DNA from: Chondrosia reniformis
Taxonomy: Eukaryota; Porifera; Demospongiae; Chondrillida; Chondrillidae
Assembly (NCBI GenBank): GCA_947172415.1
Contig: OX359201.1
Coordinates: forward strand, 1,612,001-1,676,000
Length of the DNA: 64,000 nt
Direction: 5' to 3'
The notes under the pieces are model-generated. The model had not been told where the DNA came from, made no database searches, and was given only the letters and a program-made list of their open reading frames with translations. The translations under genes were made by a program, and so were the position numbers. Each line of letters opens with the position of its first letter. Within the stretch, counting starts at the first letter, position 1. Of this stretch, positions 50,951 through 59,137 are shown piece by piece.

Positions 50951-51998
50951 TCCACTCGTGCACCAAAACATTCTACACTGACTTTGATTTAAGTATTGCT
51001 TTCCAAGACAATCTCTTTACATACAGCGCTATATATATATATAGCATTTATTTTTATTCATAGTCTTGAAATAGATACCTGTGTTCTATATAATTTAAAT
51101 TCAGTTTAATTACTGCCTAATACTTTCACTTTAAATGTAATGAGTCCATGGGTGAGTATGTATATTATTCCAGTAAACATATATCCTAGTTCTTTATGAG
51201 CTTTTAAGTATTTACCAATTGCAATGGTGTTCAATTATAAGTAAACTACACAAAGCTAATAGTATTCATTGATCAGTTGTATTGCATCATTGAAAATCAA
51301 TCATCGCCATGGACAACGGAGTATAAATGAGATATAGCCCATGGACTCTGACCTCTACCAGAATATAATTCTGGCTACCGTGTATATACTGTGCACGTCC
51401 TCAACTCTGGGCTATAACTTATATGTACGTACGTGTAAATACATAATCAAGTTTAACTTAAAAACATATTCAAAATGAAGTTAGAAGTAGGAATGGCAGT
51501 GCCTATACAATAGTGAGATTGGCACATCTGGAAAAAGTAATGAAACAAGATAGTGATCATATGGTAAGCTAGGCTAACCATATAGAATTAATCGACGTAG
51601 TGGCATATATATACGTACGTATATACTGAAACTTAACTATGTTTGGGCAAATCATGTTAAAAGTATTGGACCCAAACATAAGAAGTGATGTTCGTATATA
51701 ATTAAGTTTCAGTATGGTTATAACCTTAAGCTTACCATATTTGTCCAGCCATCCCAACTTAGAGAGTACTATCATACTCTCTGATATCTGTGATGATACC
51801 AATCTCAATATCTACTTAAAAGTTTGCTGTTATATATATCTATATACGTATGGTGACTATACATGACTTAATTGTAGCTATTAAATATGAATGTTAAATG
51901 TTTAAGTTGATATACAAAACAACAAAACAATATTAATGTATTATTAAGTATCTATTATGATTTTACTGTAAGATAAAACTAGTGACTAAGATTATTAT
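50951..51998. other. Intergenic: phosphatase promoter side and 3' flank of the Ig-PARP gene
   Basis: No coding exon is seen. Positions 51480-51790 contain a decayed repeat whose words (GGAATGGCAGTGCCTA, AGAGAGTACTATCATACTCT) recur at 16370, 6650 and 61890. The phosphatase start region should lie just above 50950. Confidence 0.45.
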
Positions 51999-54900
51999 TC
52001 AGCAAAAATCAATGTGATATTCAGGGTACATTTGAGCATCTTGAAAAATCACAAAAATGCTAGGCTGTATAACATCATCAACCACTGAATCATATAGAAT
52101 TGCTGGGTTATTTTGATCCTTTGCTGGGGCATTTTTCAAATCTTTATTTCCCTTAGTGTATTGTCCCGTCAAAACCTTTGCCAGGTACATGTGCTTCCTA
52201 CCATGTACATCAGGTGGAGAGTAGACATCACTAGCAGAATATCTTGCATTTACAGCAAAGTAGGTCCCATTACCAAATGCTGTTCCTGCATAGAGCAAAA
52301 CTGTAAAATCATATCTGTATAGAAGATACATTGATAATAAGGCATGTACTATATATACCAACAAACATTAATATTATACATCTTGTAGAGGCCTGAATGG
52401 CTAGATAGCTCTGACATAAACATCTAATTTCAGCCCAGATAAACTGTTTTAAAGTAAACTTCACCATTCATTGATAAAGGTAGCTCGGCTGTAAGCTGCC
52501 AAAATATTCGAGTTTAATGGTTTATCATGCCTATAATGTGAACGAAACTAGATATTAATTATACATACTTATAATAAGCGTATATATCATTGAAATAAAG
52601 CAAGGAAACTATAATCTAATACAACTACTAGTAACTGTCATGATACCATGTTTTCCTGCATAGCTTCTGTTAAATCCTCCATTATTAATTTTATCTACAA
52701 CATCAAAAGCACATCCATGGAACAGCATCCTCTCATTTGCTATAGAATTAGTCTGATCCATAATAGCCTTCCTTGCAGAATACTGAGCATACAATGTAGG
52801 ATTCTGAATTCTTTGAATTCTTATACTTTTTATAGGTGTATATGTCTCTGTGAATTTCCGTAATACATATGAACATTCGAGTTTGTTACTGACAGGATGT
52901 AGATCCACTACTTGACATTTCTTGTCTGAAGACATTAGTTCATTAATCCTATGGATATCCCATTTAGATGGCCATCTGCACATAAATTCACCTATAATAA
53001 ACATAACAGCTTGACCACTAAAATTTGAATCAATTGATATGTAGAAATGAATCTCTACATATGTTTACTTGTATACGCATACAAAGAAATTTACTTGTAT
53101 GTTCATTGGTGACCACCTTGGCTGAGCCTATATGCACAAACAAAAGACAAAACATCTCTTTCTTAATCACATCAATTTCCATGCACCTTACCAATTGCAA
53201 CTCTCTTCCTGTACCTGATACATAAGTAGCAAGTGCGCATTACACATATTAACACCAATAGTGAGACAAGAGATACCACACAAATCACCGAAATCTTCCA
53301 CCATGTCCTTGATATAGGTAAAGCTAATTAAAAGAAACAACTACGGCTAATTGCATTATGAAGCCCAGGGTGGGAGACGTTTATGTTGCATTGATTATTG
53401 AATTTAAATAAAGCATCCATATCGTATACGTACATATATGTATACATATAGTATAAGTTACAATATATCACACTATATAATCTAAAGTTATTAAAAATTA
53501 GGCATTTAAGAAGGTCGTGTGACCCAAATGAGTAAATTTTAAAAAATATCACAGAATTTTAAGAGTTTTAAGTGAAGAAAAATACTTAAGTCTATGTTTC
53601 TCTGTATATAGTTTGTTTTGAAATTAGAAAATTAAAGTTGCATGCAATACTTCAAGTGCACTATGAAAACAGAATAGATACTACCCTAGATGATGCTCTG
53701 TTTTATAGTTTTCCAAACTATATCTGGTCCTGTTCTAAGATTAAAATTATAAATAATAAATAAATTATTTTTCTCACAGTCAAAAATTTTAACACTGTTT
53801 TGTGCTACCCATTTTGTAATATTGTACTCATTATTCAAAATCCTTTTATATGGTGAACACCCTGATATATAGAGTGAACTAATATAAAAGGGTTTGCCTG
53901 CATATCAAATATTATATATAAAATGTTAAGTTGATGGACTGACCTTCTAGATCTTGTGTAACAATATTGACTGTGACATCTTGTGACACTGAACCCAATA
54001 CATTTTCTGCTACACATGTGTAGCTACCAGAATGTGACGATTCAGCAGACTTGAAGTGTAATGTTCCTTCTTTTGCATATGGACCTTTGGTACTGGGGTC
54101 ACTTGTTAAACTAAACCATTTTGAGTAAAGAAAAGAGATTAAATGTACATATATCTAAATGTGAGTGTATATACTGCTTTCTATATATAAGCAAAATTCT
54201 TAATCAACAGACTATTTTATATAGTAACAATTATAATCAGGTGCACATGGGCATATGCACTCAAAATGATCGTTCATATACATTATGTATAATGTGGGCT
54301 CTGATTTGCACCTCATTTCTTGGAACATCTGACATTAGCAGGAGTGAGACAAAAGGTGTTCATGCCATACGGATAGCCCCTTTACATCCGGTAATGAGGG
54401 TGGAGAAACTGGTAGCTACAAAGCTTCCAAGGATCTCTCTGTCAGTGATGGTAAAGGCGAAAATCTACACTTACAGTGCATCCAAGGGCAACACCTGAGG
54501 AGATCAGGGCAATCGTGCTGAAGGAAGAATGTCTTGGAAATTGGATGAACTATACCGCTAGCGATATTTTTGAAGATACATATTTATCTGACACCTGGTA
54601 AATACAGTAAGTTTTTAGGCAAAATTGGTTAAATCAGAGCCCACTGTATATGCAATCATCTACTTTTATAGCTCACTCTAATTTATCTTTTTTCCATTTT
54701 ATTTTTGGTCTTGGTATACCAAATGCTGAGCAGAATATGACTGCAGTATCTGATGGAGTTATAATAGTATAGCTGGATGGAATTGACCTTGTGAAGTGGG
54801 GAACTGCAAAATGAATACAAAAAAGAGTGGTTTAAAGAAGGTGTAGGTGTACTCAAGTAATTTTAACTGTTAAAAAGTGAGATGATCACATGAAGGTGTG

Positions 54901-57900
54901 ATTAAAGGGACATGCAATATTACACAACACATGTAGATTGCCCATAAATCACACTTTCAGTGAGAATGTCTTGCACGGCAGATGGCAATTACGTATAGTA
55001 TATATAGATAGATAGATATAAACAGGCTTGGAACAAGATCAATTCTCACAATAACAAAAACCTAAACATGGATTATACATAATTATATTAAGGAACTAAT
55101 TTATAGAGATATATACATATATATTTCCACTGCATATACCTTTCATGTTATATATAAGTATATATTATTACAATCATAATTACCTGTTCCTGCAGCCAAC
55201 ACATTTAGATAGGCAAAGCTTTCAATAGATGGTTCCACTGAGCATATATACCATCCACTGTCTGAGAGCCTGACTTTAGGTAATAAAAGAAATTCAACTC
55301 CAGTAGTATATCTAAAGGACCGAATACATGCAGAGACAATGTTTAGACAATATAGAAATATATACGTATGTATAGATATTTAAAATGTTATATTATAGTA
55401 ACTATATATCCTAGCTCTCTTCAGCAAGTATACATATATATGTGATAATTCATAGCCAGGGATCAGACATAAATATATAAAATATCTGATTGTTATTACC
55501 ACAATAGATATATACTGCATCTAAACCATCTACTGAGACAAGATACTAAACCATGTCATGGAATTGGCTGCTAAAAGCTTTTCCTCTTTGTGCACTCAGT
55601 TTACAGTGCACCCTCCACCATTTTTTGGGGGAAACCCCAGTGCAGTATTCAGATGGGATCCAGCAGTATGCTCCTCTATCTGTTTTGCCTTTCTATCCAC
55701 CAGCTACCTGAAAGCTGCCATCAGAGCTAGTTGTCTTCTACCTGGATAATGCCCCCTGGTGGCAGGGTTGAGGATGTCCTTTAGGACCACTGAACTGTGG
55801 AATGTGCTTTGGTGGATCAAGGACTCCAGTTAAACAATTAAGGGAATCTCAGGGGTCATCTAGCTAATGACTTATGACAATGTGCTCAAGGCCATCACTA
55901 GCAGTGTTATCAACATCCACTATGAGCTCGAAGAACAGGACCCAATCTGTGATTGCTTCCTGTTCCTAGTGGGAAGGGAATTCTAGTGAAGTACGTATAT
56001 GGTGGCCTGGGTATTAGTATATATACGTATAGTATTGTCCCTGAGGCTCTCCCTTTCCTCTGGGATCTTGGTCACTGCCTCAAAGAGGCAACTGCATGGA
56101 AAACAGCAGTCCGTGTAGTTTCTACTCCAGTGCGTTTCTGTGGCTGCATGTGCAGCTGGGAAATGTGGCTGCTGTCCTGGGTTCCCTCAAGGGTTTCATG
56201 GACTTGGAGGGGTATTGACTGATTGATGTTAGGTTGTGACTGTTCTTTGCTATTGTGTAATGATTCTAGAATAAACTGTATTTGCACTACAGTAACTGAA
56301 CAATCATTGTATTCTCTTATTATTATTATTATTATCATTATTATTATTATTATTATAAGAAGTTGACTGGTTGGGCTATCCTTACTAATCTTAAAGCTTA
56401 TGGCATGTCACAATAATAAACAATCATTTATTATTATTTAAAAGTACTTAAAATTGATCTTCACTTTCTATATATATCTACGTATACAATAATACTATAC
56501 ACTTACCTTGAAGGAAGGTTTTCTATTCCATACTTTGACCATATTACTGGGACTGAACTACCATTTTGATAACCAGCCTTACATTTAAATACTACATCCA
56601 AACCGACAACACTTGTCCTATTTCCTGGTAACAGTATAAATTGAATATTTTTCAGCTCCTCACCTGTATACAAGTATATATAAATACATTTGATACAGCG
56701 ATATATTGTAAATATCAATATAATATTAGCAGCGAGGGATTTATATCTAATAGCTATATGCATTTTCTTGATCTCAATCCTGACTAACTGATGAAAACTG
56801 CCAGATGAAAAACAAGTAATATGTTTCACTTAGTATGCATGTTAGAGATTTTAAAAATTCTAGATAAAAATTTGGATACATAAGACACATACATGACTTT
56901 GAAATTCCTTGAACACACAGTCCTGCAATATACTTGAATACTTAAAAATTGGATCTATTTTTTGTTAATTTGATGCAGTTAACTAATCAATATTTTAAAA
57001 TTCAAATATTTTTAGTATTATATTATTATTATTATTATTTATAAGTGTTTTTGTGTATATACACACTATGGCTATTAGCCCAAAACAGTACTATTATATA
57101 TAAAAAGCAGCACTGTTGTTCTCCAAAACTTGGAATAAAAAAATATAATTATTACCACACATTTTGAAATGAGTCCTCTCTCCACTATGTCCCTAAGAAC
57201 ACTGAGCTTCGGTTTCTCTCCCAAATCTGTCAACTTCTCTTTCACTGCTCTCCACACCCACGCATCTGTCCTAATTCCCTTAGAGATAGATAATGCCTCC
57301 ACATCCTGAGCATCTACTTCTTTCCGTCTAAATTTCTTACAGGCTTTATTTTAGGTTCCATTTCACCTTTCTTTGACATTCCAGAGCGTCTAATACCACA
57401 CACTTGAGCATCCTACTGTCCTCTATTTTGAACCAGAATGCCATAGCTCGCTTTCATGCTGCCCACTTAAGTGGTAGAACATCCATTTCAATCTGCAGAG
57501 ATGTTTTAGGATGGAACCTATTGCCAAAGACTCTGCAACCTCTCAACTGATCATGAACCTGTTCAATTTCTTGTATCTGCCTAGAACCCCCACTGTTACT
57601 TCTACACCACAGAGTTCTCCAAAGCCTCCATTACTCTCCTTAAAGCACCCCTTTAATGCCACCAGCTTTTAGCCTACTCCTACTTATCCCAACCCCAAGA
57701 GCCCTGTATCCTGCCTTTGTCCTTACATCAACCATTCCCTTCATCAATAAAAATCATTCATCACGCATCAAAGATCCTTGTAATTTGATATGCTTGATTT
57801 CCTCTATGGCAATATTAAATACACCTGTAGATCTAGCAGACTAGCGTTGATTGCGCAATGAAGGGTCTGATTTCATCAGACTATAGCTATAGCTATACCT

Positions 57901-58183
57901 GTTTACATATGCATGCACCTTTGTTCAACATGCACGCTTAATTAATCTGAAACCTCATTAAGGTAGCTATACTAAATATTTCCTATTTATAAGAAGAAGC
58001 CCGGTTTCGAGCGTTCCTTCTATCGTAGCATATAAACTAGCTATATTCGGTAAGACGCTAATTCAGAGAATCGCCTAAATTCAGCGGAAAGTTTGCTATG
58101 CAACAAAATTACTATGAAATCATTTTGAACTCACCAAAACAACAGGATGAAACAAGGAATATCGCGACCAAGAAGACGCCCAT
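51999..58183 (-). CDS. Type I membrane protein with two Ig domains and a cytoplasmic PARP catalytic domain, 474 aa
   Basis: Nine exons close to 475 codons: 58183-58135, 56663-56507, 55311-55184, 54803-54677, 54110-53944, 53323-53192, 53127-53095, 52991-52647 and 52285-51999. The signal peptide is [17 protein letters not shown]. Ig1 (about 17-111) has [15 protein letters not shown] and SGWYICS. Ig2 (about 112-208) has [15 protein letters not shown] and [12 protein letters not shown]. One membrane helix (about 219-240) follows TWWK and ends in RYRKR, so the C-terminus is cytoplasmic. Residues of about 268-474 are a PARP14/PARP10-type catalytic domain: [51 protein letters not shown]. The triad reads His-Tyr-Ile, as in mono-ADP-ribosyltransferases, not the His-Tyr-Glu of polymer makers. 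I know no established family with this architecture. Confidence 0.82.
54294..54644. mobile_element. MITE in an Ig-PARP gene intron, 351 bp
   Basis: The ends GTGGGCTCTGATTT and AAATCAGAGCCCAC are perfect inverted repeats. The flanks TGTATAAT and TGTATATG could be a diverged 8-bp target duplication (hAT type). It lies in the intron that splits the second Ig domain. Confidence 0.7.
55555..56230. repeat. Higher-GC decayed element in an Ig-PARP gene intron
   Basis: Base composition changes sharply from the AT-rich surroundings, and short open frames appear on both strands with many stops. It looks like the remains of a transposable element, but I cannot name the family. Confidence 0.4.
57140..57850. 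repeat. Decayed element remnant in the first intron of the Ig-PARP gene
   Basis: A pyrimidine-rich, higher-GC block. On the minus strand a short frame reads [20 protein letters not shown], then stops appear. It is probably a retroelement fragment; the family is not recognised. Confidence 0.4.
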
Positions 58184-58256
58184 TCTTCGTGTACCGTAAT
58201 GTCTCTAGCGTTATGGTTTACCCATAGATCTTATATACTTACGTAACCATAGATCT

Positions 58257-59137
58257 TATATACTTACGTAACCAGGATTGGAAACAACGCAAAAAAACGC
58301 AGTTAGAGGCTGATAGATCGAGACGGTCAGGCGGTCTGGTGACGTGTGTGACATTTTCGAATTCCGCTGATGACATCACGCTGGTGATGTAAGTTTGATC
58401 CGAGTACGTACGTATAATTTTATACGTTAATAATATTCATTGTCCGCATTCCAATGATGTCATTGAAATACGTCATAAATCGTATTCAATAAGTGACCTA
58501 TTTGTCCTATTTTGGTATTAATAAGCAGTCCATTACGTATGTTTACTAAGGAAAACGTCAAAAAACGCTTCGTGTTGCTCACGAGTACGGCAAGAGCTTT
58601 TAAATGGAGGAAGAATCACTTCCATCGATTGTTCGACGGCTGAGATAACGAGGAAACAAGTTGTACGCTTTTCCTACTTCACAAAGCAACATCTGTCGGT
58701 TTTTCTCCTAATCGAAAGGTTTTCGAAGGAAAAACTCGACGTCACGCTCTGTAGAATTATCGTAGGCATCATTTCTGAATGAACAGTTCACGATTTACCG
58801 CCTTACTGAAGCGAAAATGAGGACATAAGTTGTATATCTGTCATTTTCCTGCAATAAGCTTCTTTATTAGCAAGGTTAGACAAGAACAATATCTTTCGTC
58901 TACATTTACCACTGTATTAGGTATTTTCGATTACCGTTAGAATGTATCTGCTCTTTAGTATATATTCGTTGTAGAGATATAACGACTTTATCTATGGTCA
59001 GTCATTTGCGTTAGAATTTTTCCCGGTCTATCAGCCTCTAACCTTATTGCTTACGTAGGAGGAAAATTTATACTGTGGTCTACGTGATGTAATATATATA
59101 ATTTGCGCGTTTCCAATCCTGGTTACGTAAGTATATA
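58257..59137. mobile_element. Element of 881 bp with inverted termini, directly upstream of the Ig-PARP gene
   Basis: The termini are inverted (58257-58285 and 59109-59137: TATATACTTACGTAACCAGG, then ATTGGAAAC). A second inverted pair (GTTAGAGGCTGATAGA at 58301 and TCTATCAGCCTCTAAC at 59026) lies inside. The left terminus is partly duplicated just outside (58231-58256). It starts about 75 bp above the ATG and so may supply or split the promoter. Confidence 0.7.

Follow-up and report, generated by a model that had tools for sequence, protein, structure and literature searches.

In this study, we examined 64,000 nucleotides of the Chondrosia reniformis genome (contig OX359201.1, positions 1,612,001 to 1,676,000 of the forward strand; hereafter the window), whose minus strand carries nine exons between 58183 and 51999 that, in the model rebuilt from the sequence, form a single frame of 474 amino acids ending in TGA. 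We believe that this is probably a chimeric gene for a single-pass sponge receptor, in which exon shuffling brought together an Ig/membrane family and PARP14-like catalytic exons. The predicted protein is most likely a receptor-type mono-ADP-ribosyltransferase.

The features of the gene are collected in Table 1. All eight introns of this Ig-PARP gene are GT-AG with consistent phases, and the stretch from 51900 to 58300 contains no N. The open frame and the introns bear out the nine phase-consistent exons that a first-pass annotation of this DNA had proposed. The model is more than a product of chance because the borders of exons 2 to 6 recur in a paralogue on contig C11 and those of the PARP exons recur in three PARP14-like genes. 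Paralogues were searched for in a genome of 117,379,552 bases in 15 contigs, where the window gene lies on C13. Directly upstream of the start codon, a tandem duplication of 25 bases (ggttacgtaagtatataagatctat, minus strand) was observed at 58224-58273 of the window.

Table 1. Exons of the Ig-PARP gene and the intron of the presumed join, in positions of the window.
Feature	Position	Strand	Content	Basis
Exon 1	58135..58183	-	Start codon and hydrophobic, signal-peptide-like start	Model, hydropathy
Exon 2	56507..56663	-	Ig domain 1, first half	Pfam; 74% identity to C11 paralogue exon
Exon 3	55184..55311	-	Ig domain 1, second half	Pfam, C11 paralogue comparison
Exon 4	54677..54803	-	Ig domain 2, first half	Pfam, C11 paralogue comparison
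Exon 5	53944..54110	-	Ig domain 2, second half	Pfam, C11 paralogue comparison
Exon 6	53192..53323	-	Membrane helix and RYRKR stop-transfer; symmetrical, phase 1-1	Hydropathy, paralogue comparison
Exon 7	53095..53127	-	33-nt linker, phase 1-1	Like start of tail exon of C11 paralogue
Intron 7	52992..53094	-	103 bases; stretch where Ig receptor and PARP would meet	Inferred from ends of the two homologies
Exon 8	52647..52991	-	PARP catalytic domain, first part; His356 codon 52719-52717	Pfam, PDB alignment, paralogue borders
Exon 9	51999..52285	-	PARP remainder; Tyr388 (52262-52260), Ile456 (52058-52056), stop codon	Pfam, PDB alignment

The features of an IgSF single-pass receptor were found in the window protein, the Ig domains by Pfam, and the signal peptide and the one membrane helix with its basic cytoplasmic flank from hydropathy alone. 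With the whole protein, Ig_3 scored 76.1 bits (E 3e-21, cut-off 30) and appeared in two stretches at a lenient E limit of 1. When the domains were scanned alone, Ig domain 2 was clear (Ig_3, 55.7 bits), and Ig domain 1 was weaker but real ('ig', 26.4 bits against a cut-off of 21.8; Ig_3, 28.3 bits, just below 30). The 19-residue hydropathy scan showed a hydrophobic N terminus and a single strong helix, peaking at residues 220-238 and followed by RYRKR. The ectodomain contains two N-glycosylation motifs (31 and 50). A signal peptide, two Ig domains and one helix with RYRKR had already been read from this DNA, and Pfam and hydropathy agree with that reading, Ig domain 1 being the weaker. The signal peptide, the single helix and RYRKR together predict a topology with the Ig domains outside and the PARP domain inside.

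The PARP domain scored 71.9 bits in the whole protein (E 6.4e-20, cut-off 26.7, residues 308-473). The closest PDB sequence was PARP14 (7e-53), and PARP15 reached about 4e-48. The triad residues H356, Y388 and I456 align with PARP14, whose third place is Leu in that alignment. An H-Y-[I/L] triad instead of H-Y-E goes with mono- rather than poly-ADP-ribosylation. By its domain, its closest sequences and its triad, the predicted catalytic domain is of the PARP14-like (Clade 3) type, and mono-ADP-ribosyltransferase activity is predicted for it. The PARP14-type domain with a His-Tyr-Ile triad, as first annotated, was thus confirmed by Pfam, by the PDB alignment and by the trees described below. 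The catalytic domain is like that of the Clade 3 mono-ADP-ribosyltransferases of the PARP14/PARP15 type, whereas the rest of the protein is not: up to E 1, Pfam matched the window protein to none of the macro, KH and WWE domains, and in their place it has the signal peptide, Ig domains and membrane helix.

Relatives of the two halves were found separately in the same genome. For the Ig/membrane half, the genome search matched four exons at C11:6244547-6247712 to residues 22-248 at 45-70%, and a fifth exon (47%) was found locally. The paralogue, modelled at C11:6244539-6248919 without a located exon 1, has the same borders and phases of exons 2 to 6 as the window gene, but it continues into an ordinary tail of approximately 250 aa without PARP, where the window gene has its PARP tail. 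All 79 candidates for this ordinary tail were scored, and no other match in the genome was found at E up to 1. In the ectodomain and membrane parts, 140 of 229 amino acids are identical between the two proteins, and the NG86 dN of 0.255 and dS of 0.681 give a ratio that fits purifying selection. Among the matches listed, no convincing remnant of the ordinary tail was found in the window: the best, with E 0.07, fall outside the gene (24 kb and 8 kb), and those inside the gene span, at 52.8 kb and 57.2 kb, have E values of 10 and 14.

For the PARP half, the nearest paralogues in the genome search lie at C6:3.414 Mb, C11:5.752 Mb and C11:5.727 Mb, all without Ig. The frames upstream of the PARP exon were scanned for domains in two of these genes, C11:5.752 and C6. 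At C11:5.752 Mb, Macro (1e-18) and WWE (3e-10) were above the cut-off and a PARP14-type KH was below it; in the C6 gene, the KH match stood alone, also below the cut-off. The acceptor of the catalytic exon and the intron within the domain have the same position and the same phase, 1, in all three PARP14-like genes and in the window gene, and the matching upstream donor was seen in two of the three, the phases being taken from the printed sequence. Because the inner PARP intron was retained, copying from DNA is favoured over copying via RNA. The window PARP domain grouped with the three PARP14-like genes in both trees, with support of 98/94 in a tree of 26 rows and 97/91 in one of 30. The smaller tree had dropped eight rows for a missing anchor motif and contained no C5 copies; the larger one restored those eight and added three C5 copies, and seven rows of the smaller tree are absent from it.

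In total, the genome gave 43 PARP matches at E up to 0.001. Near-alike PARP14-like copies were seen at C3:3.66-3.71 Mb (L041, L043, L044 and L045, two on each strand) and at C11:3.66 Mb (L056). These copies carry in-frame stops, TAG in the C-terminal part and TGA in the N-terminal part; they look like decayed or segmentally duplicated genes, and they are in neither tree. A local cluster of PARP-like genes with at least two unusual sequence types was observed at C8:4.85-5.09 Mb (L017-L021, L024-L027, L030).

The place of the join was narrowed down with the paralogue's tail. When aligned from base 1, exon 7 shares 18 of 33 bases with the first bases of the C11 tail exon (shuffle p 1.1e-4, or 0.011%). 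In the C11 stretch, 1 of 319 AG-anchored starts reaches 18/33, and we take this one to be where the tail exon itself begins. Conversely, 2 of the 7568 AG-anchored starts in the window reach 18/33, one being exon 7 and the other scoring higher (19), so the likeness of exon 7 is suggestive and not proof by itself. This likeness would place the join within the next 103 bases, and it is suggestive of approximately 11 codons of the receptor's own tail having survived before PARP took over. Exons 6, 7 and 8 all start in phase 1, and therefore the frame is open with or without exon 7. In the stretch scored, the exon 6-8 donors rank 6 and 8 among 87 GT and the acceptors rank 4 and 10 among 87 AG, with a small training set that includes other sites of the same gene. 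These splice signals are acceptable to middling and not outstanding, and higher-scoring sites lie nearby. We infer that exons 6, 7 and 8 are carried in one mRNA.

It could be argued that our model joins two adjacent genes, one for an Ig/membrane protein that stops soon past exon 6 or 7, the other for a cytosolic PARP that begins near exon 8. Relatives of each half do exist without the other half. When the donor of exon 6 or exon 7 is read through, a stop follows 6 or 21 codons later, which makes a plain Ig/membrane receptor isoform with a short tail possible, and the early in-frame ATG of exon 8 makes a separate PARP transcript possible. However, just 200 bases lie between the membrane exon and the first PARP exon, with neither AATAAA nor ATTAAA between them, the acceptor of exon 8 and its phase are still those of a PARP14-like internal exon, which would be needless for a first exon, and exon 7, which is like the ancestral tail exon, is in phase with exon 8. 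We therefore consider two genes unlikely. The same symmetry of exons 6 and 7 (1-1) that keeps the frame open could also serve alternative splicing of one gene, in which skipping exon 6 would give a secreted Ig-PARP protein without the helix and a transcript that stops at exon 6 or 7 would encode a plain receptor. The three skips tried contained no internal stops and gave 463 aa (exon 7), 430 aa (exon 6) and 419 aa (both), but symmetrical exons are common in IgSF genes, and we rate this explanation as very unlikely.

It might further be supposed that PARP was added recently and has no function here, with little or no translation of this part. The fusion is known as a single copy from one species, and its age is difficult to approach: the NG86 dS of the PARP half was undefined against the C6 gene and C11b and was 1.87 against C11a, the third paralogue, so neither the fusion nor the constraint since the fusion can be dated from it. 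Against this supposition, the PARP part contains no stop or frameshift and keeps the H-Y-I triad. Compared with the C6 gene, it differs by 0.29, 0.31 and 0.62 at codon positions 1, 2 and 3, a pattern that would be expected for coding sequence under constraint. In simulated neutral decay, the trials without a stop were 28% at 0.05 changes per site, 9.5% at 0.1, 1.7% at 0.2 and 0.4% at 0.34. Such few stop-free trials speak against long neutral decay and, under neutrality, leave room for a very recent fusion alone. We find a non-functional attachment scarcely probable. The sequence comparisons suggest that the fusion may be younger than the divergence of the Ig half (dS 0.68).

Returning to the chimeric receptor, we looked for the same combination elsewhere. 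Approximately 5.8 billion proteins were searched within length and word limits, the searches admitting 0.55-1.75 times the query length (about 261-830 aa), and none of the matches listed combined Ig with PARP Pfam domains. The full protein gave 96 matches, and residues 210-474 gave 125, of which 120 were listed; the sole Ig-bearing match listed was a contactin. Residues 18-268, the Ig/membrane half, had no match in this database within the same limits. None of the matches listed is named as a sponge protein, some being nameless. Among the 187 matches fetched, five (P0077, P0088, P0109, P0133 and P0172) have a 19-residue run with a mean hydropathy above 2.0. Two matches were unusual in other ways: P0075, a metagenome protein of 641 aa, carries Pfam annotations for a protein kinase as well as for PARP, and P0184, a fish protein named extended synaptotagmin-3-like, has C2 and PARP domains and may be either a gene model joined in error or a further PARP linked to membranes.

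Within the Chondrosia reniformis genome, the search found no second copy of the fusion. At 42 PARP loci, some of which cover one place twice, and with split genes whose flank starts at the matched exon, no Ig pattern was found nearby (0/42), and a membrane-helix-like frame was found in the upstream flank of approximately 1.5 kb at one (L006). The control on the window gene caught its membrane exon and missed its Ig exon, so the survey is informative for the membrane segment alone. The genome-wide Ig lists, with 150 of 972 and 150 of 821 candidates scored, do not contain the window's own split Ig exons.

Some IgSF receptors, for example, receptor tyrosine kinases, have an enzyme as their cytoplasmic domain. 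They share the Ig ectodomain, the single helix and the intracellular enzyme with the predicted window protein, whose enzyme is an ADP-ribosyltransferase and not a kinase or phosphatase. Cell-surface ADP-ribosyltransferases are likewise familiar as the GPI-linked ecto-enzymes (ARTC), but these belong to a different ART family and have their catalytic site outside the cell. In PARP16, which belongs to Clade 6, a membrane segment is also combined with PARP, but the segment is C-terminal (PMC4245714), whereas the window protein ends with its PARP domain and has its sole membrane segment before it. The first-pass annotation had limited membrane PARPs to PARP16 and had seen no description of the present architecture. 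The former claim fails, because a Clade 3 protein of another sponge, Amphimedon queenslandica, has been published in which a transmembrane domain at the N terminus is combined with PARP (Perina et al. 2014, PMC4245714), and membrane anchoring alone is thus not new. As described, the Amphimedon protein resembles the window protein in having its membrane segment before a Clade 3 PARP domain, but it is presented there with no Ig domain, and the main text of that paper does not use the word immunoglobulin (PMC4245714). The latter claim stands for the Ig ectodomain with PARP, which was found neither among the matches listed nor in a relevant report of an Ig-PARP receptor in the open literature. Within the limits of these searches, the new elements are the Ig ectodomain and the traceable origin by exon shuffling.

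We propose that the last two exons of a PARP14-like gene, the catalytic ones, were probably moved by shuffling to a place after the Ig/membrane exons in a small family of IgSF receptors, where they would have replaced the family's ordinary tail; a less likely course is that the C11 paralogue lost a former PARP. The protein would be located in the plasma membrane, its Ig domains facing out of the cell and its PARP domain lying in the cytosol. In the simplest scheme, ligand-driven clustering, or binding by the Ig domains as such, would direct mono-ADP-ribosylation to the receptor's own tail and to nearby proteins; macro/WWE-bearing PARP14-like proteins of the same genome are possible readers of this mark. 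That the Ig receptor writes ADP-ribose with its cytoplasmic domain upon ligand binding, and that these proteins read it, is a tentative proposal to which we give somewhat less than an even chance.

If the fusion is expressed and active, it would be an animal receptor that signals directly by ADP-ribosylation, and a surface signalling route that runs on NAD+ instead of a kinase would have been built by the shuffling of two phase-1 exons. It would also be a receptor innovation whose exon shuffling can be traced, because relatives of both parental families are present in one genome and the join can be narrowed down to about 100 bases. PARP14-family enzymes are associated with immune defence. The metagenome of the specimen yielded 53 binned bacterial genomes (PMC12181767). 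Given this immune link and the many bacterial associates, with an Ig-PARP protein in this sponge, self/non-self or microbe sensing via ADP-ribose would become directly testable, provided that the protein is expressed and active.
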